Origin: Alphaproteobacteria bacterium | GTDB lineage: Bacteria > Pseudomonadota > Alphaproteobacteria > Puniceispirillales > Puniceispirillaceae | DNA length: 35,622 nt | Assembly (NCBI GenBank): GCA_009919335.1 | Contig: RGCC01000004.1 | Span: 1-35,622 of the forward strand | Direction of reading: 5' to 3' | Part shown: one piece after another, positions 15,357 to 28,159 of the stretch | Layout: every line of letters starts with the position of its first letter | How positions within the stretch are numbered: the first letter of the stretch is position 1 | Translations under genes and position numbers: made by a program | The notes under the pieces: generated by a model | Told to the model about the DNA's origin: nothing | The model's database searches: none | The model's input: only the letters and a program-made list of their open reading frames with translations

Positions 15357-16577
15357 ATGACAACAACAGCTCACTCCTCACTTCCCTTGCTATTCACTCC
15401 AATAAAATTGCGTGGTCTCGAAATACGCAATAGAATAATGGCATCTCCAATGTGTCAATATTTGTCAGAAGATGGCGGCCCTAATGACTGGCACCTAATG
15501 CATTTAGGCCGCCTTGCTATCGGAGGCTGTGGCATTGTTTTTGGCGAAGAGACTGCGGTCGAACCGAATGGCCGCAAAACATACTCTTGCGCAGGCATGT
15601 ATGACACAAAGCATGTAGGGGCGTATCGTCGCCTTACTAATGTTATAAAAGAAAATGGAGCAGTGCCCGCTATTCAATTGGGGCACTCTGGCCGTAAAGG
15701 GTCCTGCCATGGTGCTATCGAAGGCTGGCGGCCACTCGAACTCGAGGACGCCAAGTATGGGAAAGCTCCCTGGCAAGTCATGGCCCCTACGGCACATAAC
15801 TGTCCCCCTCGTCCTATTTTCCCAAAAGAAATGGATCTTGATGACATAAAAAAGGTGATCAGCTCTTTTCGCACAGCTGCTAAAATGAGCATCGACTCCG
15901 GTTATGAAATTGTTGAGATTCATGGCGCGCACGGCTACCTGATACATCAATTTCTCTCATCAACCTCAAACCAAAGGGAGGACGCTTATGGTGGAAGCCT
16001 TGAGAACAGAATGAGGCTTGCCGTCGAGGTTGCTGTGGCTGTCAGAGAAGTTTGGCCTCAAGATAAACCTGTTTTTTTCAGGCTTTCTGCTGTTGATGGC
16101 AAAGGGGGTAGCTGGTCACTTTTTGAGTCAATCCAGCTAGCCGCAGCACTCAAAGCAGTTGAGATTGATATGATTGATGTATCTTCTGGAGGAGTGATGG
16201 GCGACAGCGAGATGCCCATGGTGCCACGCATACCAGCCTATCAGGTCGAGTTTTCAAAACGCATAAGATCAGCAGTTGGAATCAAAACTGTTGCTGTTGG
16301 CGGTATAACAGAACCAAAACAAGCCGAAGAAATATTGCAAGCAGGCGATGCTGATTTGATAGCTTTAGCACGCGAACTTTTGTGGAATGCTGACTGGCCC
16401 TCCCACTCAGCAAAGGCATTAGGGTTAAAAGATCCGTTTGCCTACCTCCCGGAGGGCTATGCTCATCGCCTTCGCCTTCGGGAGAGCCAAAAAGAAATGA
16501 AGATAAATCAAGACGAAACGGAAATTACCAAAAGTCTGAGTTATTTTCTCAGTAATGCCGATGATCCCGCAGATTAG
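15357..16577 (+). CDS. NADH:flavin oxidoreductase, Old Yellow Enzyme family (YqjM-type)
   Basis: A 406-residue FMN-binding TIM barrel of the OYE family that would reduce activated C=C bonds with NAD(P)H. It has the YqjM-class cysteine motif ASPMCQY near the N-terminus, the QLGHSGRK segment, the substrate-binding pair in EIHGAHGYL, the FLSSTSNQREDAYGGS family signature, and C-terminal phosphate binding in VAVGGI and IALAREL. Codon use differs from all neighbours: AGA/AGG arginine, ATA isoleucine and A/T-ending codons are frequent, and the surrounding DNA is more AT-rich. No clear ribosome site precedes the ATG at 15357. These signs suggest recent acquisition. Function in the local pathways is unknown; reduction of an unsaturated acid or ketone is plausible. 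Confidence 0.92.
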   Translation: MTTTAHSSLPLLFTPIKLRGLEIRNRIMASPMCQYLSEDGGPNDWHLMHLGRLAIGGCGIVFGEETAVEPNGRKTYSCAGMYDTKHVGAYRRLTNVIKENGAVPAIQLGHSGRKGSCHGAIEGWRPLELEDAKYGKAPWQVMAPTAHNCPPRPIFPKEMDLDDIKKVISSFRTAAKMSIDSGYEIVEIHGAHGYLIHQFLSSTSNQREDAYGGSLENRMRLAVEVAVAVREVWPQDKPVFFRLSAVDGKGGSWSLFESIQLAAALKAVEIDMIDVSSGGVMGDSEMPMVPRIPAYQVEFSKRIRSAVGIKTVAVGGITEPKQAEEILQAGDADLIALARELLWNADWPSHSAKALGLKDPFAYLPEGYAHRLRLRESQKEMKINQDETEITKSLSYFLSNADDPAD

Positions 16578-16610: not shown

Positions 16611-17396
16611 TTATTTAATTGGGTTCGCGCCACCATAAGTCCAGCGGTAATGCGGTGGTGTTGGGCCTTTATTCCTCTCTTTGCGGCCAGCTTGCTCATG
16701 CGCATGCGCAAGTGCCCCAACCGATCTTGACAGACAGAAAAGGCCGCGCGCCAATGCAGGCTCAAACCCAAGCTCGGCATAAATTACCGCGGTCACACCA
16801 TCAACATTCATCGGAATTGGCTTGCCTTTTAAATCGGCTAGAAACCGTTCAACCCCCACCGCAATTTCGGCAAAGCCACCATCGCAGATGTTTGCTGCAA
16901 CCGCCGCCTCAAGCAGCGTCATCAACCGCAACGATCGTGGGTCAGCGTTCTTATGAAAGCGGTGACCAAATCCCGGAACAAGACGATTATTCGCCTGATA
17001 GACAGTCTTGATCGCCGTTTCTAGCGGCATCTCCACCGCCTGTGCTTTGACATCATGGAAGAATTGCATGGCCTGCTCGCCGGCACCGCCATGAACATCG
17101 CCTAGCATATTGATCGCGTTCGCCATCGCATTATTAAGCGACAGGCCGCAGCTAACCGCCATCCGCGCCGCAGCAATTGAGGGCGCTTGTGGGCCATGAT
17201 CAACCGCTGACACCAGCGCCGCCTCAAGCAAGGCCGCCTGTGATTTATCAGGCCGCGTGCCACGGGTCATCAGCCAGACCATTTCAGCAAAGCCGATATT
17301 GCCGATCAAATCCTCAATCGGAAACCCCCGCAGCCGAATTTGACCCGGCGCCATATCAATAATATCGGTTTGCCACCAATCTGCTACATCCGTCAT
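16611..17396 (-). CDS. Citryl-CoA-lyase-like protein (short citrate-synthase homologue)
   Basis: A 261-residue protein matching the C-terminal two-thirds of citrate synthase and the length of Hydrogenobacter-type citryl-CoA lyase. Catalytic residues are all visible: His102 in GDVHGGA, His145 in VPGFGHRFH, Asp199 in MNVDG, and an arginine in FCLSRSVG. True citrate synthases are about 370-430 residues. The expected reaction is reversible cleavage of a 3-hydroxy-3-carboxyacyl-CoA, citryl-CoA or an analogue, into acetyl-CoA and a 2-oxoacid. The start is the ATG at 17396 with AGGAG about 10 bases upstream; the upstream in-frame extension runs into the CoA-transferase. It is the last gene of the six-gene minus-strand operon, 19 bases after a CoA-transferase. 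Fold and catalytic residues are seen, the substrate is inferred. Confidence 0.88.
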   Translation of the reverse strand: MTDVADWWQTDIIDMAPGQIRLRGFPIEDLIGNIGFAEMVWLMTRGTRPDKSQAALLEAALVSAVDHGPQAPSIAAARMAVSCGLSLNNAMANAINMLGDVHGGAGEQAMQFFHDVKAQAVEMPLETAIKTVYQANNRLVPGFGHRFHKNADPRSLRLMTLLEAAVAANICDGGFAEIAVGVERFLADLKGKPIPMNVDGVTAVIYAELGFEPALARGLFCLSRSVGALAHAHEQAGRKERNKGPTPPHYRWTYGGANPIK

Positions 17397-17415
17397 GGCC
17401 TTCACTCCTTTACCG

Positions 17416-18633
17416 CTATGCGTTGGTTTCTGCTTCAATTGCATCATCGGCAAGACCAATGATACCGTCAGCATATAATTCCTTGATCTGGGCGGCTGAA
17501 AACCCAAGGCTTTCAAGACATGGGCCAGTATCAGCGCCAATGACCGGCGGATTACGCGTTAGATTGCCAATGCGCCCATCAAGGCTTATCGGCAGGTTTG
17601 GCAGCCGGCCTTTTTCCCCATTGGGCATGATAGTTTCAAGAAGGTAACCACCGTCATTTAGGTGCGGATCGTTGAACAGCGCTTCGGGCCGCGCGATCGG
17701 CGCAAATGGCAGATCAGCCGCAATCGCTTTTTCGGTCACCGCCGCCAGATCCAGACCGGCGATCGTCGCCGCCAGCCGTGGCAACAGACGCGCGCGCGCC
17801 TCGATACGCTGATTATTGGTTGCCAGCGTTGCATCAGCACCCAGATCATCAAAGCCAAAAATATTACAAAATCTGAGCCAATGCTTATCCGAGGTGATGC
17901 CAAGAAACACCATGTGATCATCCTTGGTGCGGAATTGATCATAAATCGCCCATGCAGATACCCGTGCCGGCATCGGCGGCACCGGCTCATCCGACTGGGC
18001 GGCATAGGCAAGATGCTGGCCCATCAGGAACATCGCGCTTTCAAACAATGCCGATTTAACCAATTGCCCTTGGCCGGTTTTTTGCCGTTCTATCAATGCT
18101 GCCTGAACCGCAACAACACCAAATGTACCGCCCATAATATCGACAACGGACGCACCCGCGCGCAATGGCTGACCGGGCGGCCCAGTCATATAGGCCAGCC
18201 CACTCATCATTTGCACAACCTCATCAAGCGCAATCCGGTTTTCATAAAGGCCCGGCAAAAATCCCTTTAACGACAGATAGATCAGACGCGGGTAATCTGC
18301 GCCTATTTGACCGTAATCAAGCCCCAGCCGTGTCATCGTTCCGGGGGCAAAATTTTCAATCAGCACGTCAGTTTTAGTCAAAAGCCGTTTGACGATCCCA
18401 AGGCCGCGCGGATCTTTCAGATTAAGTGCCACACTTTGCTTATTACGGTTAAAAAAGGGAAAGTAACCGGTACCAAAGCCCTTTAACCGCCGTGTCGGAT
18501 CACCGGCAACAGGCTCAATCCGGATCACCTCAGCGCCAAGATCAGCAAGGATCAATCCGGCGGTTGGCCCCATAACCGTGTGGCCGAAATCAAGCACGCG
18601 CAACCCCGCAAGCGGCATGGCATCGGCACTCAT
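17416..18633 (-). CDS. CaiB/BaiF family (class III) CoA-transferase
   Basis: A 405-residue class III CoA-transferase, which moves CoA between carboxylic acids through an aspartyl-CoA thioester intermediate. The N-terminal LRVLDFGHTVMGP segment, the VLIENFAPGTMTRLGLDY motif and the nucleophile region VVDIMGG (catalytic aspartate about residue 170) are all present. The length is normal. Its ATG overlaps the stop of the upstream ADP-forming acyl-CoA synthetase gene by 4 bases (ATGA). It is followed by the citryl-CoA-lyase-like gene. The acid substrate is unknown; a dicarboxylic acid with succinyl-CoA as donor fits the operon context. Confidence 0.9.
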   Translation of the reverse strand: MSADAMPLAGLRVLDFGHTVMGPTAGLILADLGAEVIRIEPVAGDPTRRLKGFGTGYFPFFNRNKQSVALNLKDPRGLGIVKRLLTKTDVLIENFAPGTMTRLGLDYGQIGADYPRLIYLSLKGFLPGLYENRIALDEVVQMMSGLAYMTGPPGQPLRAGASVVDIMGGTFGVVAVQAALIERQKTGQGQLVKSALFESAMFLMGQHLAYAAQSDEPVPPMPARVSAWAIYDQFRTKDDHMVFLGITSDKHWLRFCNIFGFDDLGADATLATNNQRIEARARLLPRLAATIAGLDLAAVTEKAIAADLPFAPIARPEALFNDPHLNDGGYLLETIMPNGEKGRLPNLPISLDGRIGNLTRNPPVIGADTGPCLESLGFSAAQIKELYADGIIGLADDAIEAETNA

Positions 18634-20840
18634 ATAGTGTCTCCGCCGGCACCATTTTTCGGGCCTATCCGGACCAGCGCATCAAGCATCAGAACGCCAT
18701 CAGATCGCACCAATACCGGATTAATCTCGGCCTCGGCAATCCGGTCACTACCAGCCAGCCTTGATAGGTTTGTTATCAACCTAGCCAATGCGTCAAGATC
18801 GCCTTTGGGTTTTCCGCGATAGCCACGAAGGGCGGCAAAGCCCTTCACCTCGGCAATCATCTTATGCGCGGTTGCAATACTGACCGGTGCGGGGCGTATA
18901 GTTACATCTTGGTAAATCTCGGCAAAAATACCGCCGGCGCCAACGGTAATGACCGGCCCAACCAGATTATCATGCCGCAACCCAACCAGCGCCTCGCCAA
19001 GCCCGAGGGCCATTTCTTGAACCAGCACCCCATCAATATGTGCCTTTGGCGCATGAATTTTTACCGCACGCTGCATCTCGGCAATCGCCGCCTCAAGCGC
19101 CGCCTCAGATTCAATCGACAGAACCACCGCACCATAATCAGATTTATGCGGCAAATCCGCCGAGACCAGTTTAGCAACCAGCGGGAATTCTAACCCTGTT
19201 TCAGCCACCATGGCCGATGCTTTAAACGCTGCATCATCACCGGCCGGTAAAAATAAATGCCGCGGCCCCTCGATACCAAGCGCGGCAAAAAGCCGGCACC
19301 CATCAACCTCATTCAACAGCCCCCCGGCATCACCGATTTTGGCAGTCGAAATCATTGTCTCTAGCTGCTGCCCTATGGCCAGATGATCATCCGCCTTTGT
19401 GCCAATATGACGTTCATCACCATGATCATCTTGATCGGTTTCCACATCATCACACAGCAATAGTCCAATGCTGTCGGCACAGCTCTCGACACTGCCAAAG
19501 CATGGAATTCCAGCCGCCTCCAGCATCGTCATTGAGGTGACTGCAACCGGCAACGGAAAGGCCGCCACCGGTGCCGCTGCCGGATTTTCAGCAACCGCAT
19601 CAATAATGGGCTTTACCGCCAGTTCGGGATTAAACTGCGCCGACGAGCCAATCGCCACCACAACAATCCCGGTTTCGGGATCATTGATCAATTGAGTGAT
19701 GGCCTTTTTCATAATATCATACTGGGCACCGGCGAGCGTAACATCGACAAGTTTGCCACTGCCACTTGGAATGTTCTGCAACGTAAAAAACGCTTTCGAA
19801 GCCGGGCTTAATCCGGTCAACTCGACACCGCGGAGGCTGAGCTGGTCAACCAGCATCGCCCCACCGCCGCCAGTTGTCGTGACAACGGTTGCACGGCGTG
19901 GACGCGATCCCAATTGGGACTTTTTCATCAATAATGCCGGCGCTTCAAACAGCGCATCAAACTGGCGAACCTCGGCCACCGAATGCTGTGCTAGAAACGC
20001 CCGAACCGCCGCCGCCTCACCAGTCATGGCACCAGTATGCGAAACCGACAAGGCCTGACCATCGGTCGATTTTCCAAGCATATAGGCCACTACCGGCTTG
20101 CCAAGCCGTTTGGCCGCTTGGGCAAATTCAGCGAATATCTGCGGATTGCGCATGGTTTCCAGAAACAAGACAAACCCGTCGATATCTTCATCATCAACCA
20201 AGGTCAGGCCAAGCCTGCCAACACAAACCTGCGCCTCATTACCAAGCGAGACCAGCGCGGCAAAGCCGATATTTCGTGCCTGCCCCCGCGAAACAAGCGT
20301 GCCAATCAGACTGCCACTATGCGATAGAACCGCCAGCCGCCCGCGCGGTAAATCGTCGATTTTAAAGGCCGCATTGGTGGTGCAGACGAAGCCATTATTA
20401 GTGTTTACCACGCCCATCGAATTTGGCCCGATCAGCATCAGCTTGGCGGCATTCGCCTTTTCCACAAGCCGCGCTTGGCGTGCTTGCCCCTCGCTGCCGG
20501 CCTCGGCAAACCCGTCGGCCAGCACCGAGACAATCTGCACACCGGCGGCGATACAATCATCCAGCGCCGCCTCAACCAGTTCAGTGCCAAGCAGAATATA
20601 GGCGTGATCTATCTTTTCAGGGATTGCCGAGACCGACGGATAAGCCTTGATGCCAAGCACCTCGTCACGGCGCGGGTTGACGATATAAATTTTACCGGCA
20701 AACCCATGTTGCTGGCAGAATTGCAACGGCCGCGCCGACAGTTTTTTTGCATCACCCGATACACCAATGAGCGCAATTGATTTTGGCGCAACAAGCGCGC
20801 ACCCTAAATCATGCCCAGCCTCATCCGCAAAATCACCCAT
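18630..20840 (-). CDS. Acyl-CoA synthetase, ADP-forming (NDP-forming, ACD family)
   Basis: A fused ADP-forming acyl-CoA synthetase of about 736 residues. Domains in order are a CoA-binding Rossmann domain (residues ~15-130, SIALIGVSGD), a succinyl-CoA-ligase-like domain with the phosphorylated histidine in SVSHTGAMTG (His268), and an ATP-grasp_5 domain (from about residue 510, with FPLVAKLVS and GAVVLSI). It interconverts acid, CoA and ATP with acyl-CoA, ADP and phosphate, and is related to citryl-CoA synthetase and succinyl-CoA synthetase. ATG at 20840 has AAGGG about 9 bases upstream; an alternative ATG at 20864 has no visible ribosome site and lies 2 bases after the upstream stop. It is embedded in the operon between an acyl-CoA dehydrogenase and a CoA-transferase, so two activation options exist in one operon. 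Confidence 0.88.
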   Translation of the reverse strand: MGDFADEAGHDLGCALVAPKSIALIGVSGDAKKLSARPLQFCQQHGFAGKIYIVNPRRDEVLGIKAYPSVSAIPEKIDHAYILLGTELVEAALDDCIAAGVQIVSVLADGFAEAGSEGQARQARLVEKANAAKLMLIGPNSMGVVNTNNGFVCTTNAAFKIDDLPRGRLAVLSHSGSLIGTLVSRGQARNIGFAALVSLGNEAQVCVGRLGLTLVDDEDIDGFVLFLETMRNPQIFAEFAQAAKRLGKPVVAYMLGKSTDGQALSVSHTGAMTGEAAAVRAFLAQHSVAEVRQFDALFEAPALLMKKSQLGSRPRRATVVTTTGGGGAMLVDQLSLRGVELTGLSPASKAFFTLQNIPSGSGKLVDVTLAGAQYDIMKKAITQLINDPETGIVVVAIGSSAQFNPELAVKPIIDAVAENPAAAPVAAFPLPVAVTSMTMLEAAGIPCFGSVESCADSIGLLLCDDVETDQDDHGDERHIGTKADDHLAIGQQLETMISTAKIGDAGGLLNEVDGCRLFAALGIEGPRHLFLPAGDDAAFKASAMVAETGLEFPLVAKLVSADLPHKSDYGAVVLSIESEAALEAAIAEMQRAVKIHAPKAHIDGVLVQEMALGLGEALVGLRHDNLVGPVITVGAGGIFAEIYQDVTIRPAPVSIATAHKMIAEVKGFAALRGYRGKPKGDLDALARLITNLSRLAGSDRIAEAEINPVLVRSDGVLMLDALVRIGPKNGAGGDTI

Positions 20841-20866
20841 AATATTGCCCTTAATATCGCGCATGA

Positions 20867-22036
20867 TCAGCCATCAATTTTTGGCGGCTTTGGCGGGCGC
20901 TGCTGGAAACGCCGTTCAAAAACACCCTCGGCAATCCGGTTTTTCAGAATTTCTGTTGACCCGCCAGCAATCATCCAGCCGCGTGTCCGCCGCATGCAAT
21001 ATTGCACGATGCTGTCGTCACTAAAGCCCAGCGCACCCATCACCTGCAACGCCTCATTTGCGGCAAAGAAGCCAGCCTCGTTACATGCCAGTTTTGCCAC
21101 AGCCGAATCATGCGCCGATGGCAGGCCATTATCAGCCCGCGTTACTGCCCGCATCAGCAATAGCTGTGCAGCCTCAAGCCGCATTTCCATTTCGGCGAAT
21201 TTCCACTGTATCCCCTGAAATTCGCAAATATCACGGCCAAATTGTTGGCGCGTTTTGGCATGATCACGCGCCTCGCTAAATGCTTTGCGCCCAACCGCCA
21301 CGGCACGCGCGGCATTGCCGAGCCGTTCAATGTTAAAGCCGGATATCTGCTTTTTGAATCCCCCCGGGCCAAGCAGGATATTCGCCTTTGGTATCCGGCA
21401 ATTGTCAAAATAAAGCGGCGACCATGCCTCGCCATTCATATAGCGATAGCCCGGGCCAATGGTAAAACCTGGGGTGCCCTTTTCAATGATCGCCGACCCA
21501 ATACCCTCGGTACCCGGGCCAAACCGCAAATAGATCAGGAACAAGTCTGCCTCACCGCTATTCGTCCCGAAAACCTTGCTACCATTGATTAAGAAATCAT
21601 CCCCGTCAGGCGTTGCAGATGTTTTCAGTTCGGTAACAGATGACCCTGCATCGGGTTCGGACATACCAACCGACATCACCCCTTTTCCGGCCAAAAGGTC
21701 AGGCAGGAAGCGTGCCAGTTGATCATCACTAGCATATTCGGCGAATGTGCGGATTGCACCGAAATTGCCAGCCTGCACCACATCAGCACTGCGCGGACAA
21801 AATTCAGCAACCGCCTGAATCGCCAACACCGCATCGCTTAGACTGCCGCCGATACCGCCCTTGGCTTCGGGAATGGTAATCCCAAGAAGTCCCATCTCGG
21901 CAAACCGGGCGGCAATATCCCATGGATAGCCGTCGCTATTGGCCCGGTCAACCGCACCATCCGCCAGTTCAGCAGCGGCAAAGCGCCGGACCGTATCATA
22001 GAAAATCTGCTGATCTTGGGTGAGTTCGAAATCCAT
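20867..22036 (-). CDS. Acyl-CoA dehydrogenase family protein
   Basis: A 389-residue acyl-CoA dehydrogenase with the FAD/substrate segment VGMSEPDAGSSVTELKT in the beta-domain and FQGIQWKFAEMEMRLEAAQ and QVMGALGFSDD in the C-terminal domain. At the usual catalytic-base site it reads MIAGGSTEIL, so glycine (about residue 358) stands where short-chain enzymes have glutamate. In other acyl-CoA dehydrogenases the base comes from a different helix, so activity is not excluded. It would introduce an alpha,beta double bond in the acyl-CoA formed by neighbours. Its ATG directly follows the CoA-transferase stop with no gap. Whether it acts on a linear acyl-CoA or a substituted succinyl-CoA cannot be told from sequence. 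Confidence 0.9.
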   Translation of the reverse strand: MDFELTQDQQIFYDTVRRFAAAELADGAVDRANSDGYPWDIAARFAEMGLLGITIPEAKGGIGGSLSDAVLAIQAVAEFCPRSADVVQAGNFGAIRTFAEYASDDQLARFLPDLLAGKGVMSVGMSEPDAGSSVTELKTSATPDGDDFLINGSKVFGTNSGEADLFLIYLRFGPGTEGIGSAIIEKGTPGFTIGPGYRYMNGEAWSPLYFDNCRIPKANILLGPGGFKKQISGFNIERLGNAARAVAVGRKAFSEARDHAKTRQQFGRDICEFQGIQWKFAEMEMRLEAAQLLLMRAVTRADNGLPSAHDSAVAKLACNEAGFFAANEALQVMGALGFSDDSIVQYCMRRTRGWMIAGGSTEILKNRIAEGVFERRFQQRPPKPPKIDG

Positions 22037-23242
22037 CTAGGCATCCTCATCATCATTAAAAACAGCCGCCCCACTAGAGGCAAGCTGGCTAATTTCATCA
22101 TCGCTAAATCCAGCTGCCAATAATGCAGCCCGCCCCCCTTGGCCAAGGCGCGGCGGTGTCATTGCCGCGTGATCACTCAACGATGCCGGCGACAATCCAG
22201 CGATGCGTGCCGCTGGCAATTGACCAAACTCTTCGATCTCAACCCAGCCAATTGCCTCGGTTTCAGCAATTTGAGGATCGTCAAACAAATCATCATAATT
22301 ATGTACCGGCGCATTCAGTATATCGGCTTTCGACAACACATCTACCCAATGCGCCGTTGGCCTTTGCATAATGTGAGGCGCGACAAGATTGTTGATTTCT
22401 GCAGCGTTATCAAGCCGGGCCTCGGCCGAATTAAACCGCGGATCATCCAGCCATTCATTGGTGCCCAAATGCTGGCACAGGGCGGTAAAATGCGGATCAC
22501 GGCGCGCATTTAAACTAAGATAACCATCCGCTGTGGCAAAGGTGCCAACGGGTGCCCCAACCGGCTGAACAGCCGAGCCTTCAAATTTTTGTGCAACAAG
22601 ACGCGCCTCTTGAAAGGCCATCGCACTTTCCAAAAGGCTTGTTTGAATATGACAACCGCGTCCGGTTGTTGCGCGCCGGTACAGCCCGGCAAATACCGCC
22701 TGACTAAGATAAAGGCCGGTCGAATAATCAATCGCCAGCATATTGATCCGGCGCGGCAATCCAGCTTGATCCCGGTTGATGCTCATCAGGCCGGTATAGC
22801 CCTGCATCACGGTATCAGTTGCCGGCATACGGCTTTTCGGGCCCGTCGGGCCAAATCCGGTAACCGATGCATAAACAACGTTTGGGTTAACCGCCGCCAC
22901 AGCCGCATAATCAATGCCCAGTCGCTTTGTTACATTAGGCCGGTAATTTTCAATAATGACATCCGCCTTTGCCGCCAGCTTGAACGCCGCAGCACGGCCA
23001 TCAGGGCTTTTCATATCGAGGGCAAGGCTCTTTTTACCGCGGTTCAAGACGATTGATTCAGCCGAAAAATCGCCTTTGCGAAGACCAAGTGAGCGGCACC
23101 AGTCGCCACTACCTTGCGGCTCTACCTTGATAACACTGGCGCCGTTGCGGCCTAAAAGCAGCCCGCAATAGGGCGCAGCCACCCCTTGGGCAAATTCCAC
23201 AACAAGCAACCCGTCAAACGCATCTGCCATTGGATCGGTCAT
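22037..23242 (-). CDS. CaiB/BaiF family (class III) CoA-transferase
   Basis: A 401-residue class III CoA-transferase, clearly diverged from the one at 17416. Features are LLVVEFAQGVAAP, the VIIENYRPNVTKRLGIDY motif, and the catalytic-aspartate region NMLAIDYSTG. The ATG at 23242 lies 1 base after the crotonase stop and is preferred. An in-frame ATG at 23263 would overlap the crotonase gene by 20 bases and adds only seven residues. The C-terminus (AGFSDDEISQL) is typical of the family. It is the second gene of the operon and probably loads or unloads CoA on the pathway acid. The presence of two such transferases in one operon suggests separate acids at entry and exit, or activation of two related substrates. 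Confidence 0.9.
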   Translation of the reverse strand: MTDPMADAFDGLLVVEFAQGVAAPYCGLLLGRNGASVIKVEPQGSGDWCRSLGLRKGDFSAESIVLNRGKKSLALDMKSPDGRAAAFKLAAKADVIIENYRPNVTKRLGIDYAAVAAVNPNVVYASVTGFGPTGPKSRMPATDTVMQGYTGLMSINRDQAGLPRRINMLAIDYSTGLYLSQAVFAGLYRRATTGRGCHIQTSLLESAMAFQEARLVAQKFEGSAVQPVGAPVGTFATADGYLSLNARRDPHFTALCQHLGTNEWLDDPRFNSAEARLDNAAEINNLVAPHIMQRPTAHWVDVLSKADILNAPVHNYDDLFDDPQIAETEAIGWVEIEEFGQLPAARIAGLSPASLSDHAAMTPPRLGQGGRAALLAAGFSDDEISQLASSGAAVFNDDEDA

Positions 23243-23243
23243 G

Positions 23244-24035
23244 CTAGCGGCTCTTTTTGTCAAGAAACGCTGTTACCGCCTCATGATGCTCATCACTGGC
23301 ATAACAGATTGACTGCGCCTCAGAACCCAGCGCAAACACGGTTTCGAGCGTTAAATCAACTGACCGATTGACGATTGATTTTGACAAGGCCACAGCGCTT
23401 GGCGGTCCAAAGCACAGGCTTTGTGCCCAGTTGCGCGCCTCATCCAGCAATGTCTCGGCATCGGCCAACCGATCGGCAAGGCCAATCATTGCCGCCTCGT
23501 CAGCAGCGACGGTACGGGCACTGAAGATCAGTTCTTTGGCAACTGTTGTGCCAACACGGCGCGGCAGGAAATACAGCCCGCCGCCATCAGGAATTAAGCC
23601 GCGTTTCAGATAGGTCATCGAGAAGCTTGCCGCCGGCCCTGCAACAATAAAATCACACGCCAGCGCAAGATCACAGCCCAAGCCCGACGCGGCACCATTA
23701 ACCGCGGCAATCACTGGCTTGTCCATATGATAGATCGTGGAAATCAGACGATGCGTCTGTTTTTGCCGCTTCCAACCGTTAAATCCAACCTTGCCGCGCG
23801 GCGCCTCCAACCGTTCACGCATCCCACCAATATCGCCGCCAGCGCAAAACCCACGCCCCGCACCAGTGAGGACAACTGCGCCAACCTCGTCATCGGCGTT
23901 CACCTCGTTAAGCGAATCGATCAGGGCATTTCGCATCGCATCATTGATCGCATTTCGCTTTTCTGGCCGGTTTAATGTAACCGTCGCCACCTTGCCATCA
24001 CGGGCGACATCAATCAGGGGTTGTATGCTTGTCAT
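23244..24035 (-). CDS. Enoyl-CoA hydratase/isomerase (crotonase) family protein, PaaG-like active site
   Basis: A 263-residue crotonase-fold protein. Oxyanion-hole segments are visible (FCAGGDIGG about residues 63-71 and NGAASGLGCDLALACD). At the two positions that are glutamates in classical hydratases it has Asp122 (GCDLA) and Tyr142 (MTYLKRG), so normal syn-hydration is unlikely. It keeps the LIPDGGGLYFLPRRVG segment with Asp150, the arrangement seen in PaaG-like isomerases. An enoyl-CoA isomerase, hydrolase or atypical lyase activity fits better than hydratase. It is the first gene of the six-gene operon and starts at 24035 with GAGG about 10 bases upstream. It is divergent from the PrpD gene across a 253-base gap. 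Confidence 0.87.
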   Translation of the reverse strand: MTSIQPLIDVARDGKVATVTLNRPEKRNAINDAMRNALIDSLNEVNADDEVGAVVLTGAGRGFCAGGDIGGMRERLEAPRGKVGFNGWKRQKQTHRLISTIYHMDKPVIAAVNGAASGLGCDLALACDFIVAGPAASFSMTYLKRGLIPDGGGLYFLPRRVGTTVAKELIFSARTVAADEAAMIGLADRLADAETLLDEARNWAQSLCFGPPSAVALSKSIVNRSVDLTLETVFALGSEAQSICYASDEHHEAVTAFLDKKSR

Positions 24036-24288: not shown

Positions 24289-25674
24289 ATGGTTCTTATA
24301 GAAAAAATCGCCGATTATATTGTGCAGGAACAAACCCGCACCCTTCCACCGCGCACGATCCATCACGCCAAACGCGCTGTGATCGACTGGTTTGCCGCAA
24401 TGTATCCAGGTGCTGTTCAGGACCCTAATCCGATGCTGCGCGCCGCCTTCCTTGACAGTGGTGATCCGCAGCACGCAATCATCTTTCCGACTGGTGATCA
24501 TTCGACAGTCAAAATTGCGGCCTTTTTGAATGGGGCTAGCGCTCATACCTCAGAATTTGACGATATTTTCCGCGATGGCGGACTGCATCCGGGCTGTGCG
24601 ACAATTGCAGCTGCGCTTGCCGTGGCGCAAAAACATACCTTATCCGGCGATGCCTTGCTGCGTAGCGTTATCGCCGGTTATGAAGTTAGCAGCCGGATCA
24701 GTGCTGCGATGGGCCGTGACCATTATCGTTATTGGCACACAACGGCGACGATCGCCACCTTTGGTGCTGCCGCTGCGGCGGCGGTGCTGTTGCGCCTGAA
24801 CCGAGATCAGACAGCCCATGCTTTGGCAACTTCGGCAACGCTTGCCGCCGGATTGCAGCAGGCTTTTCGTTCTGACGGGATGAGCAAACCGCTTCACGCC
24901 GGCCATGCCGCCGAAACCGGGGTAATGGCTGCGATTGCTGCCAGCAAAGGGGTGACGGGGGCGCTTGATGTGCTTGAGGGGCCAGCTGGAATGGGCGCCG
25001 CGATGAGCGGCACTGCCGATTGGGATAAAGCCACATCAGGCCTTGGCGATACCTATAATATAGAAATGATTACTTTTAAAAACCATGGTTGTTGCGGTCA
25101 CACCTTTGCCGCCATTGACGGGTTATTGGCGGTGATGAAAGCCGAGCAGATCAGCGCCGGTGATATTGCGGATATCGCCATCGCAACCTATGGTCCGGCG
25201 GTTTCGATTACCGATAGAGTTGATCCGCAAACCCCACAAGAGGGCAAATTTTCAATGCAATATGTGGTGGCGCACGCCGCGCATTATGGCAGTGTCCGCA
25301 TCGAGGCTTTTGCTCCAGACCGGATGCGTGATCCGGCTATTCGGGCGATGCTGCCCCATATTCAGGTCAGCCTTGATCCGGAAATTGACGCCGAATTTCC
25401 ATCGCGTCGGGCGGCGCGTATCTCCATCATGACGCGTGATGGCAGGACAGTTTCTCATTATCAACCCACCCGAAAAGGCGATCCCGATCTGCCGCTATCG
25501 GATGATGAATTGAACGCAAAATTCATCGAACTAACCTCGCCAATTCTTGGCAGCATTTCGACCAACGCGCTTTTGAAAAAATTATGGAAACTTGAAACCA
25601 TCGACGTCGCCAGCATAGCTACATCTGCCGTGATCCGCCGTGATGACGAAACCCGTAATAACTTGCCAAACTGA
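24289..25674 (+). CDS. MmgE/PrpD family protein (2-methylcitrate dehydratase / aconitate decarboxylase-like)
   Basis: A 461-residue protein with the two-domain MmgE/PrpD fold. The helical N-terminal domain includes FLNGASAHTSEFDDIF and the HPG motif (GLHPGCATIAAAL), and the C-terminal domain includes FKNHGCCGHTFAAIDG. The family contains 2-methylcitrate dehydratase, cis-aconitate decarboxylase and iminodisuccinate epimerase, all acting on polycarboxylic acids by proton abstraction next to a carboxylate. No iron-sulfur cluster is expected. It sits 19 bases upstream of the UbiD-family decarboxylase and is surely co-transcribed with it. No PrpB or full-length methylcitrate synthase is nearby, so the ordinary methylcitrate cycle is not supported. 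No clear ribosome site precedes the ATG at 24289, but no alternative start exists close by. Confidence 0.88.
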   Translation: MVLIEKIADYIVQEQTRTLPPRTIHHAKRAVIDWFAAMYPGAVQDPNPMLRAAFLDSGDPQHAIIFPTGDHSTVKIAAFLNGASAHTSEFDDIFRDGGLHPGCATIAAALAVAQKHTLSGDALLRSVIAGYEVSSRISAAMGRDHYRYWHTTATIATFGAAAAAAVLLRLNRDQTAHALATSATLAAGLQQAFRSDGMSKPLHAGHAAETGVMAAIAASKGVTGALDVLEGPAGMGAAMSGTADWDKATSGLGDTYNIEMITFKNHGCCGHTFAAIDGLLAVMKAEQISAGDIADIAIATYGPAVSITDRVDPQTPQEGKFSMQYVVAHAAHYGSVRIEAFAPDRMRDPAIRAMLPHIQVSLDPEIDAEFPSRRAARISIMTRDGRTVSHYQPTRKGDPDLPLSDDELNAKFIELTSPILGSISTNALLKKLWKLETIDVASIATSAVIRRDDETRNNLPN

Positions 25675-25693
25675 CCATGCTTTGGAGCACAAA

Positions 25694-27337
25694 ATGACCA
25701 CGACACCAGCCTATAATGATCTTCAGCAGCATATTGCCGCGTTGAAAGAGCGTAACCTCCTCATCGAGGTTGATCGTCAAATCGACAAAGACAGTGAAAT
25801 GCACGCATTGGTAAGGTGGCAATTTATTGGCGGCATGAAGGAAGAAGATCGCAAGGCGTTCTTGTTTACCAATGTTGTTGATGGCAAGGGGCGCAAGTTC
25901 GACATACCGGTTTTGGTTGGCGGTCTGGCCGCCAATCGCAGCATCTATAGCGTTGGCATGGGCAGCTCGGTAGACGAGATTCAGGCGAAATGGGACAATG
26001 CCATTTCAAACCCGATTGACCCGCAATTCATTGATGATGCGCCGTGCCATGAAATCATCGAAGATGGTGATAGCCTAAGCCAGCCGGGGCACGGTCTTGA
26101 TGCGCTGCCGATTCCGGTTTCAACGCCTGGTTTCGACAGCGCCCCGACGTTAAGCGCTGGCAATGTCATTACCAAAGATCCGGAAACTGGTGTGCAAAAT
26201 ATGGGCACCTATCGCTGTGCCTTAAAGGCGCCTGACCGGTTAGTTGTCAGAATGGCAACAAGGGTTGGTGGGGCCGGCGGTTACCAGCATTATCAGAAAT
26301 GCCAGCAGATGGGCATTACCGAAATGCCTGTGGCAATTGTACTTGGCTGCCCGCCTTATGTGGCTTTTATGGGGCCGCAGAAACTGCCGCTTGGGGTTGA
26401 TGAATTTACCGTTGCTGGCGGGCTTGCCGGTGCGCCGATCAATGTGACCACAGCAAAAAGCGTCGATCTGGTCGTCCCCGCCGAAGCCGAGATTGTGATC
26501 GAGGGCTTTATCGACACAACCAAAGTCGAACCTGAAGGCCCGTTCGGCGAGTCACATGGGCACATCGCGCTGGAAGAATATAATATGCCAATGCGCATTA
26601 CCACGATTACCCGCCGCAAAAAGGCGGTCGTGCCCTCCTATATCTCGCAAGTCGCACCAAGCGAGTCCAGCGTGATCAAACGGGTGGCCTATGAACCATT
26701 GTTCCTGCGTCATCTACGTGACGAAAACAACATTAAGGGCGTGAAGAAAGTATCGCTTCACGAACCATTGACCGGCCTGCTTCGTGTCACTGTTATCACC
26801 TGTGACGCCAAGATGCCCCGCACCGAAATATGGCGCGCCCTTTATAGCGCAGCGTTTTTCAAAGGGGATTGCAGCAAAATCTGTATTGCCGTGAATGAAG
26901 ATATTGATGTTGATAATGCCGACGCCCTTTTCTGGGCGATGTCATATCGCACCAACCCGTCCGAAGATATGCAAACCTTGCTGCATCGCGGCCAAGGTCA
27001 TGGGCCCAAGCGCGAGCATGATGGCGAGGAAGATTCCAGCGTGCTGATTGATGCGACAATGAAATCGCCAATGCCGCCACTGGCACTGCCAAGCAAGGAA
27101 TATATGGAACGCGCGAAAGACATCTGGGACGAATTGGGCTTGCCGCCGGTAAATGTGAAAATGCCATGGCATGGCTATTCACTTGGCGCATGGCACCAGA
27201 TATGGGACGATGCTGGCAGGCGCGCCGCCACCGGTGACTATCTGGAAAACGGCCGCATTTCAGCTGGTCAAACCCAAGAAAACCTCAAGCCTGAGTCAAA
27301 GCTGGATCCTGATACTGGCCTTCCTGCAAAAAAATAA
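25694..27337 (+). CDS. UbiD-family prenylated-FMN-dependent decarboxylase
   Basis: A 547-residue UbiD-family enzyme that (de)carboxylates alpha,beta-unsaturated or aromatic acids using prenylated FMN. The conserved glutamate region is VEPEGPFGESHGHI (Glu279 and Glu286 in particular), and the arginine-rich N-terminal half carries the GTYRCALK and MATRVGGAGGYQHY segments that bind the cofactor phosphate and metal. The length exceeds the ~490 residues of E. coli UbiD, with extra sequence at the C-terminus. ATG at 25694 is preceded by GGAG 9 bases away; an in-frame ATG at 25640 would overlap the PrpD gene. The UbiX prenyltransferase needed for the cofactor is not in the window. It follows PrpD closely, so dehydration to an unsaturated acid may feed this decarboxylase. 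A ubiquinone-synthesis role is unlikely in this context. Confidence 0.9.
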   Translation: MTTTPAYNDLQQHIAALKERNLLIEVDRQIDKDSEMHALVRWQFIGGMKEEDRKAFLFTNVVDGKGRKFDIPVLVGGLAANRSIYSVGMGSSVDEIQAKWDNAISNPIDPQFIDDAPCHEIIEDGDSLSQPGHGLDALPIPVSTPGFDSAPTLSAGNVITKDPETGVQNMGTYRCALKAPDRLVVRMATRVGGAGGYQHYQKCQQMGITEMPVAIVLGCPPYVAFMGPQKLPLGVDEFTVAGGLAGAPINVTTAKSVDLVVPAEAEIVIEGFIDTTKVEPEGPFGESHGHIALEEYNMPMRITTITRRKKAVVPSYISQVAPSESSVIKRVAYEPLFLRHLRDENNIKGVKKVSLHEPLTGLLRVTVITCDAKMPRTEIWRALYSAAFFKGDCSKICIAVNEDIDVDNADALFWAMSYRTNPSEDMQTLLHRGQGHGPKREHDGEEDSSVLIDATMKSPMPPLALPSKEYMERAKDIWDELGLPPVNVKMPWHGYSLGAWHQIWDDAGRRAATGDYLENGRISAGQTQENLKPESKLDPDTGLPAKK

Positions 27338-27427: not shown

Positions 27428-28159
27428 TTGGACAGTTTTGAACTCGCATATGTGATGTGCGTCGCCTTTGTGACGGCCGCAATCAATAGCTTTATTGGCG
27501 TTGGTGGCGGGTTTTTGCCAGCCGTATTTCTGGCGCCGGTAATCGGCATGAAGTCGCTTTTGCCGATGCTGAGCGTAATGCTGCTGATCAGCAATTTTTC
27601 ACGCTCATGGATTAACCGGGCCGATTTTCACAAACGCGCATTTTTGCATATTGCCATTCCGGCAACCCCGATGGTGTTTCTGGGTAGCTACTTCTATTCG
27701 GTGCTTGAACCAAGAATGATTTCGCTGTTTTTGGGGGTGGTGATTTTATCTTCGATCCCGATCCGGCGCTGGGCTAAATCACGCGAAATCAAAACCTCAC
27801 CGCTGGTGCTAAGCAGTGTCGGCGGGCTCTTTGGTTTTCTGTGCGGGTCGGCGGTTGGCCCCGGCATGCTGTTGATACCCTTTATGCTTGGCTTTGGCCT
27901 GACACCGGTTAATTTTGTGGCCACTTTGGCGGTGATTGCCTCCTTTACCAATGTAGCGCGGGTTGCCAGCTTCAGCAGCCTTGGGCTGATTGACATGGAT
28001 TTGCTGATGATCGGATTGTTAGGGGGCCTTGCAACAATACCAGGCAATATCCTCGGCCGGAAAATCCTGAAAAAGCTGAAAGTAAACGCGCATACTCTTC
28101 TGGTCGATATCGTGACCTTGGGTGGCGGCCTGAACTTTATTTGGATAGCCCTTAAATAG
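27428..28159 (+). CDS. TauE/SafE-family permease
   Basis: A 243-residue integral membrane protein with about seven to eight hydrophobic segments and the family's glycine-rich first motif (INSFIGVGGGFLPAVFLAP), repeated in the second half as GLFGFLCGSAVGPGMLLIP. Such proteins move sulfite, sulfonates or other small anions across the inner membrane. The start is TTG at 27428, with AAAGG about 13 bases upstream; this is an unusual start, and M9 (27452) is an alternative. It lies 90 bases downstream of the UbiD gene on the same strand and may export the product or import the substrate of the PrpD/UbiD pair. Sulfonate chemistry is not otherwise evident here. Confidence 0.85.
   Translation: MDSFELAYVMCVAFVTAAINSFIGVGGGFLPAVFLAPVIGMKSLLPMLSVMLLISNFSRSWINRADFHKRAFLHIAIPATPMVFLGSYFYSVLEPRMISLFLGVVILSSIPIRRWAKSREIKTSPLVLSSVGGLFGFLCGSAVGPGMLLIPFMLGFGLTPVNFVATLAVIASFTNVARVASFSSLGLIDMDLLMIGLLGGLATIPGNILGRKILKKLKVNAHTLLVDIVTLGGGLNFIWIALK

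Follow-up and report, generated by a model that had tools for sequence, protein, structure and literature searches.

A modular operon in SAR116 bacteria that may degrade a substituted succinate, with a probable lyase of the citrate-synthase fold as an optional ending

What does a short homolog of citrate synthase do at the end of an operon for CoA esters, and do the genes of that operon encode a single pathway? The question is raised by a stretch of 35,622 nucleotides from an alphaproteobacterium of the Puniceispirillaceae (the window; contig RGCC01000004.1, our C185, of a 1.81 Mb assembly), whose nearest named relatives are Candidatus Puniceispirillum (SAR116). The window contains six adjacent genes, and the original prediction, made from the sequence alone, was that they may encode one complete route from a substituted succinate (methylsuccinate-like or larger) to acetyl-CoA, with a final cleavage like that of the citryl-CoA lyase of Hydrogenobacter. 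We found that the operon is modular and that its last two genes, for a CoA-transferase and the citrate synthase homolog, are an optional ending rather than the fixed end of one route. We propose that the operon is catabolic and acts on a substituted succinate (an acid with a 1,4-dicarboxylate core) by a single linear route up to cleavage by the citrate synthase homolog; we consider the chances of this reading to be evenly balanced.

Results

A conserved six-gene operon

The six open reading frames lie on the minus strand, from 24035 to 16611, in this order:

23244..24035, minus strand: crotonase-family protein (CRO; PF00378, 197 bits)
22037..23263, minus strand: class III CoA-transferase 1 (CT1; PF02515, 328 bits)
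20867..22036, minus strand: acyl-CoA dehydrogenase (ACD; PF00441/02771/02770)
18630..20864, minus strand: NDP-forming acyl-CoA ligase (LIG) with CoA-binding, Succ_CoA_lig, and ATP-grasp domains (PF13380, PF13607, PF13549)
17416..18633, minus strand: class III CoA-transferase 2 (CT2; PF02515, 349 bits)
16611..17396, minus strand: short citrate-synthase-fold protein, putatively a lyase (CCL), 261 amino acids (NF004864, 401 bits; PF00285, 135 bits)

All six were assigned to their families by Pfam and NCBIfam profile matches, and CT1 and CT2 each combine the match to PF02515 with an aspartate that aligns with the family III aspartate, as in CaiB/BaiF proteins. The genes are tightly packed: CRO and CT1 overlap by 20 nt (provided that CT1 begins at the listed TTG), CT1 and ACD are separated by 0 nt and ACD and LIG by 2 nt, LIG and CT2 overlap by 4 nt, and 19 nt separate CT2 from CCL. 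The start of CCL was listed as a TTG at 17540; we corrected it to the ATG at 17396, which has AAGGAG upstream and is also where homology to its relatives begins.

A closed genome of the same species (G438, 2.59 Mb) carries the locus at 99-100% identity with the same gene order (L144) and is colinear with the window over 20 kb at 99.5%. The order is also found in four further Puniceispirillum-type assemblies (L035-L038), so it is not an artifact of binning. The operon, its families, and its tight spacing are thus as originally described.

CT2 and CCL are an optional ending

We surveyed 16 genomes of the genus Puniceispirillum, in which absences from incomplete assemblies carry less weight. A core of ACD, LIG, and a divergently transcribed MmgE/PrpD gene next to the operon is present in 12 of the 16, with ACD and MmgE/PrpD in the same 12; CRO and CT1 are present in 9, and CT2 and CCL in only 6. 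Because of this nesting, we conclude that CT2-CCL is an optional ending of a modular operon. Wherever the locus is readable, every genome in the genus with CCL also has CT1 and CRO, and one genome has MmgE/PrpD, ACD, and LIG alone (L248). The neighborhood search that had been suggested for the six families thus recovered a conserved gene order, but in modules and not as one fixed unit.

Two genomes preserve direct traces of the loss of the pair, between the ligase gene and the oxidoreductase gene that bounds the operon. G010 retains 40 residues of CT2 (L247:7706-7825) and a truncated CRO, and G007 retains 27 residues of CCL (L249:8638-8718) and a fragment of CRO. In both genomes, CRO, CT1, CT2, and CCL have all decayed while ACD, LIG, and MmgE/PrpD are intact.

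Both types of module also occur together in other bacteria, independently: in Agrobacterium larrymoorei, where ACD-LIG and CCL-CT2 lie within 15 kb; in G075 (L130), where CT2-CCL is near LIG and ACD; and in G456 (L233), with a lyase of the hydroxymethylglutaryl-CoA (HMG-CoA) lyase type in place of CCL.

The CoA-transferases and lyases swap partners

At its genome loci, CCL usually adjoins a class III CoA-transferase (in about 44 of 51, as counted; many of these loci are closely related), and these pairs are often accompanied by TctABC and an IclR regulator. Most of the CCL-adjacent transferases group together in a clade of 23 rows with 99/98 support, and CT2 lies outside of it. In a tree of 39 homologs of CT2, 17 are close to an HMG-CoA-lyase-type gene (within 200 nt for 16 and at 2.9 kb for one), 7 are close to CCL (in one case at 6.5 kb), and 15 have neither; the type of lyase changes once across the tree. 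The HMG-CoA-lyase-type neighbor from Azospirillum lipoferum passes the NCBIfam model for HMG-CoA lyase (292 bits, cut-off 246). Relatives of CT2 are also found with catabolic-type regulators and TRAP importers. One clade of transferases thus lies beside two unrelated lyases, and one lyase beside two clades of transferases. This partner swapping is the best evidence that CT2-CCL loads CoA onto an acid and then cleaves the ester to release acetyl-CoA.

LeuC and LeuD are also present at five sampled alphaproteobacterial loci with HMG-CoA-lyase-type genes and on an Acidiphilium plasmid, which is what one would expect for a 2-substituted malate as the acid. The full set of LeuC-LeuD, CoA-transferase, and HMG-CoA-lyase-type gene (L205, L214, L217, L218, L223, and L157) looks like a compact cassette for degrading alkylmalate or citramalate in alphaproteobacteria. 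Separately, on a Ruegeria plasmid (L086), TctCBA, a CoA-transferase, and CCL adjoin an acetate kinase and a phosphate acetyltransferase fusion, possibly a CoA-transferase-based equivalent of citrate lyase with an energy gain.

CCL and the assayed citryl-CoA lyase

The nearest solved structure to CCL is 6hxp (profile E=1e-52), the citryl-CoA lyase of Hydrogenobacter, which has a short citrate-synthase fold. CCL passes NF004864, which is annotated as citryl-CoA lyase (401 bits, cut-off 261), and fails NF004869, to which the assayed enzyme belongs (189 bits, cut-off 212); the 6hxp fragment scores 394 bits on NF004869 and 185 bits on NF004864. Since each protein scores below the other's cut-off, CCL is, by these profiles, in a sister subfamily of the assayed citryl-CoA lyase, and the originally proposed equivalence with the Hydrogenobacter enzyme does not hold. 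Our look-up of the literature found no assayed member of NF004864.

We aligned 60 homologs of CCL (49-100% identity). His69, His104, His147, Arg156, Asp201, and Arg226, which are of the citrate synthase type, are invariant in all 60. His104, His147, and Asp201 are the catalytic residues and align with those of 6hxp, and the arginines are the equivalents of R329 and R401 of citrate synthase. Arg226 corresponds to the citrate synthase residue for the distal carboxylate, and the substrate of CCL probably bears a further carboxylate. As we read the alignment, the third carboxylate contact of citrate synthase is changed from arginine to glycine, next to an invariant lysine. Given these residues and the genomic context, it is quite probable that CCL cleaves a 3-carboxy-3-hydroxyacyl-CoA. 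HMG-CoA had been considered as the substrate, as the nearest solved structure to CT2 is a hydroxymethylglutarate CoA-transferase, but the invariance of the residue for the 2-oxo carboxylate led us to discard it.

Two other homologs deserve mention. A second short citrate synthase homolog is encoded on another contig of the same genome (C188; L148:7228-7995) and at L147, and is present in much of the genus. It retains the arginines and has phenylalanine and threonine instead of the catalytic histidine and aspartate, so it probably cannot act as a normal lyase, and we set it aside. Cupriavidus metallidurans CH34 encodes a homolog of CCL (57% identity; NC_007974.2 718665-719429), although its genome paper (PMC2864759) states that the strain lacks genes for a citryl-CoA synthetase/lyase route.

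The upstream enzymes point to a substituted succinate

The operon is flanked by the following genes:

24289..25674, plus strand: MmgE/PrpD protein, divergent from the operon (PF03972/PF19305)
25640..27337, plus strand: UbiD-type decarboxylase adjoining MmgE/PrpD (PF01977)
27428-28159: TauE/SafE-family transporter beside the UbiD and MmgE/PrpD genes
15357..16577, plus strand: old-yellow-enzyme-type oxidoreductase, convergent with the operon (PF00724)

The MmgE/PrpD protein has both Pfam domains of its family as well as residues that are common to Msi and IDS epimerase. Known substrates of the family have a 1,4-dicarboxylate backbone in common (PMC12290011). The association extends to many species: MmgE/PrpD is beside ACD or in the same cluster at L121, L106, L107, L139, L140, and L236, and on 16 of 21 plasmids the ortholog of CRO (55-59% identity) is no more than 7 kb away from MmgE/PrpD. 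By analogy with the rest of the family, this context supports a substituted succinate as the substrate, in agreement with the succinate-type acid that was first proposed.

Orthologs of ACD (56-67% identity) are followed in most loci by an NDP-forming ligase. When aligned to other dehydrogenases, ACD has a glutamate at the position used by isovaleryl-CoA dehydrogenase and a glycine at the position of Glu376 of MCAD. The placement of the glutamate is shared by the methylsuccinyl-CoA dehydrogenase of Pseudomonas aeruginosa. It suits a substrate with a branched beta carbon, short of proof. A role for ACD as a desulfinase was rejected: the best NCBIfam match is 263 bits, far below the cut-off of 600, and 5AF7 (presumably a desulfinase structure) has a glutamine where ACD has this glutamate.

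The UbiD-type decarboxylase is syntenic with MmgE/PrpD in most of the relatives that have the operon (L035, L036, L038, L244, L247, and L251) and is not beside it in L245 and L246; on synteny, it may belong to the pathway as a candidate. The old-yellow-enzyme-type oxidoreductase bounds the operon in the genus loci that we examined (L035-L038, L144, L244-L249, and L251). In Azoarcus KH32C, too, a TauE gene is found close to the CCL cluster (L090).

Compared to the closed genome, the window is missing about 30-76 bases at 411/412, 33120/33121, 33501, and 34939/34940. At these gaps, at least an FAD/FeS oxidase and a CitMHS transporter are split into overlapping reading frames. Because both stay open in the closed genome (1005 and 614 codons, respectively), the splits are probably assembly faults.

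Discussion

A proposed pathway and the evidence against it

In the proposed pathway, MmgE/PrpD would act on the free acid, by epimerization or (de)hydration, and the NDP-forming ligase, perhaps with CT1, would form the CoA ester. ACD would then yield an α,β-unsaturated ester at a branched beta carbon, and the crotonase or another hydratase would give a tertiary 3-hydroxy ester. CT2 would load or exchange CoA on the 3-hydroxy acid, and CCL would split the 3-carboxy-3-hydroxyacyl-CoA, of the citryl or alkylmalyl type, into acetyl-CoA and a 2-oxo acid, as its residues and the partner swapping suggest. The original claims of a CoA-ester pathway and of a degradative role for the citrate synthase homolog are supported by these data. 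Tricarballylate, via aconityl-CoA and citryl-CoA, would fit the retained Arg156 and Arg226 but not the third contact; because the arginine there is replaced by glycine, we keep it as a candidate only.

Several observations weigh against a single linear route. The hydration step, already named as the weak link, is still the weakest: when aligned to solved hydratases, CRO lacks both hydratase glutamates, as the original prediction had noticed, and has aspartate at Glu144 and tyrosine at Glu164. (CRO also has an aspartate in an IPDGGG motif.) CRO could be an isomerase, with hydration instead by MmgE/PrpD or by an enzyme encoded elsewhere. Three genomes (L244-L246; the genome behind L244 is 99% complete) keep MmgE/PrpD, CRO, CT1, ACD, and LIG without CT2-CCL, so the upstream steps must be useful without CCL. 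Near 15 of the 39 CT2 homologs, we detected no lyase of either type, in stretches that are mostly about 5-11 kb. Finally, related clusters in other places include genes for a thiolase and a 3-hydroxyacyl-CoA dehydrogenase fusion, the equipment of ordinary beta-oxidation.

Alternative explanations

The main rival is that two independent routes share one transcript. MmgE/PrpD, CRO, CT1, ACD, and LIG would form a route similar to beta-oxidation that is finished by housekeeping enzymes, and CT2-CCL would act on a separately imported acid of the citrate or citramalate type, as a CoA-transferase-based equivalent of citrate lyase. The otherwise intact operons without CT2-CCL fit this explanation, as do the genes for 3-hydroxyacyl-CoA dehydrogenase and thiolase that adjoin ACD-ligase in other clusters and the stand-alone transferase-lyase pairs with tricarboxylate transporters in many proteobacteria. 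Against it are the nested presence of the modules, the joint decay of CRO, CT1, CT2, and CCL in G007 and G010, and the fact that both types of module cluster together, independently, in three bacteria that are not related. We consider two routes to be possible, and lean against them.

The operon might instead encode the methylsuccinate/itaconate pathway of Pseudomonas and Cupriavidus with non-orthologous enzymes, in which case CCL would cleave citramalyl-CoA to acetyl-CoA and pyruvate. The order of reactions matches that of the published cluster of Ict, Mcd, Ich, a CitE-type Ccl, and Msi (PMC12290011), MmgE/PrpD adjoins ACD in both systems, and ACD shares its glutamate position with Mcd. However, when we read the P. 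aeruginosa cluster (L149) for comparison, ACD and the adjacent MmgE/PrpD protein were just 31% and 35% identical to Mcd and Msi, too distant for orthology. Also, the closed genome has a separate locus at 1.0765-1.0807 Mb (L153) with homologs of Ict (50% identity), the CitE-type citramalyl-CoA lyase (44%), itaconyl-CoA hydratase (42%), and an Msi-like MmgE/PrpD protein (31%). We infer that L153 is the methylsuccinate locus. As the same species has this separate set of homologs, the acid for the window's operon is probably not methylsuccinate, and the methylsuccinate-like substrate of the original prediction loses ground. The distal-carboxylate residue that CCL retains, Arg226, also speaks against this explanation, which we think improbable. 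(L153 adjoins what looks like a fumarate-reductase/succinate-dehydrogenase-like set.)

It is very improbable that CCL is biosynthetic, joining acetyl-CoA to a 2-oxo acid to form citrate or an alkylmalate, which CT2 would then free. In favor of this role, the reaction can run in both directions, and CCL has the fold and residues of citrate synthase. Against it, the genome has an ordinary full-length citrate synthase gene in another place, relatives of CT2 are found with HMG-CoA-lyase-type enzymes, TRAP importers, and regulators of the catabolic type, and CCL is found with tricarboxylate importers.

Implications if CCL is catabolic

More broadly, we tentatively suggest, with somewhat less than even confidence, that the NF004864 subfamily, which is widespread in proteobacteria, cleaves, together with a class III CoA-transferase, CoA esters of the alkylmalyl or citrate type that are distinct from citryl-CoA, and that it alternates with lyases of the HMG-CoA lyase type beside the same transferase clade; in SAR116 it would be the optional ending of an undescribed pathway for a substituted succinate. 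Citryl-CoA lyase is a marker enzyme of carbon fixation by the reverse TCA cycle. NF004864 proteins are annotated as citryl-CoA lyases, yet heterotrophs encode them next to CoA-transferases and importers of tricarboxylates. Should they be catabolic alkylmalyl- or citryl-CoA lyases, then the annotation misleads surveys of carbon fixation, and a branched-dicarboxylate pathway can be tested in a lineage that is abundant in the ocean. Genomes of the genus form a natural series (core only, core with CRO-CT1, full operon, and decayed operon) that could show which substrates each module adds.

Comparison with known systems

Our literature search, which covered SAR116 and the combination of citryl-CoA lyase, CoA-transferase, and acyl-CoA dehydrogenase, found no such operon. 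The methylsuccinate/itaconate cluster of Cupriavidus necator and P. aeruginosa (PMC12290011) has the same sequence of an MmgE/PrpD enzyme on the free acid, CoA activation, ACD, hydration, and cleavage to acetyl-CoA and a 2-oxo acid, and the dehydrogenases share the glutamate position. In contrast, its hydratase is of the MaoC type and its lyase has the CitE fold, while the window's operon has a crotonase-type candidate, a citrate-synthase fold, and an NDP-forming ligase. MaoC-type hydratase and CitE-type lyase genes are absent from the operon, and their homologs are at the separate locus.

Ccl of Hydrogenobacter thermophilus (6HXP) has the same short citrate-synthase fold and the same catalytic His/His/Asp. 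It differs from CCL in belonging to NF004869 rather than NF004864, and CCL is directly partnered with a CaiB-type CoA-transferase, not with citryl-CoA synthetase.

In Chloroflexus, succinyl-CoA:D-citramalate CoA-transferase and (R)-citramalyl-CoA lyase are a gene pair. These enzymes are classified as EC 2.8.3.20 and EC 4.1.3.46 (PMC8307300). As in the window, a CoA-transferase is paired with a lyase that releases acetyl-CoA, and the CT2 clade has the same kind of pairing with HMG-CoA-lyase-type genes at its 17 loci; the window's lyase is instead a non-homologous protein with the citrate-synthase fold.

Lastly, clusters of the dicarboxylate type that combine an NDP-forming ligase and ACD with 3-hydroxyacyl-CoA dehydrogenase, thiolase, or TctABC, such as one on an Acinetobacter plasmid, contain an orthologous ACD (66% identity) followed by the ligase. 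Unlike these clusters, the window's operon has no 3-hydroxyacyl-CoA dehydrogenase or thiolase and ends in CT2 and CCL.

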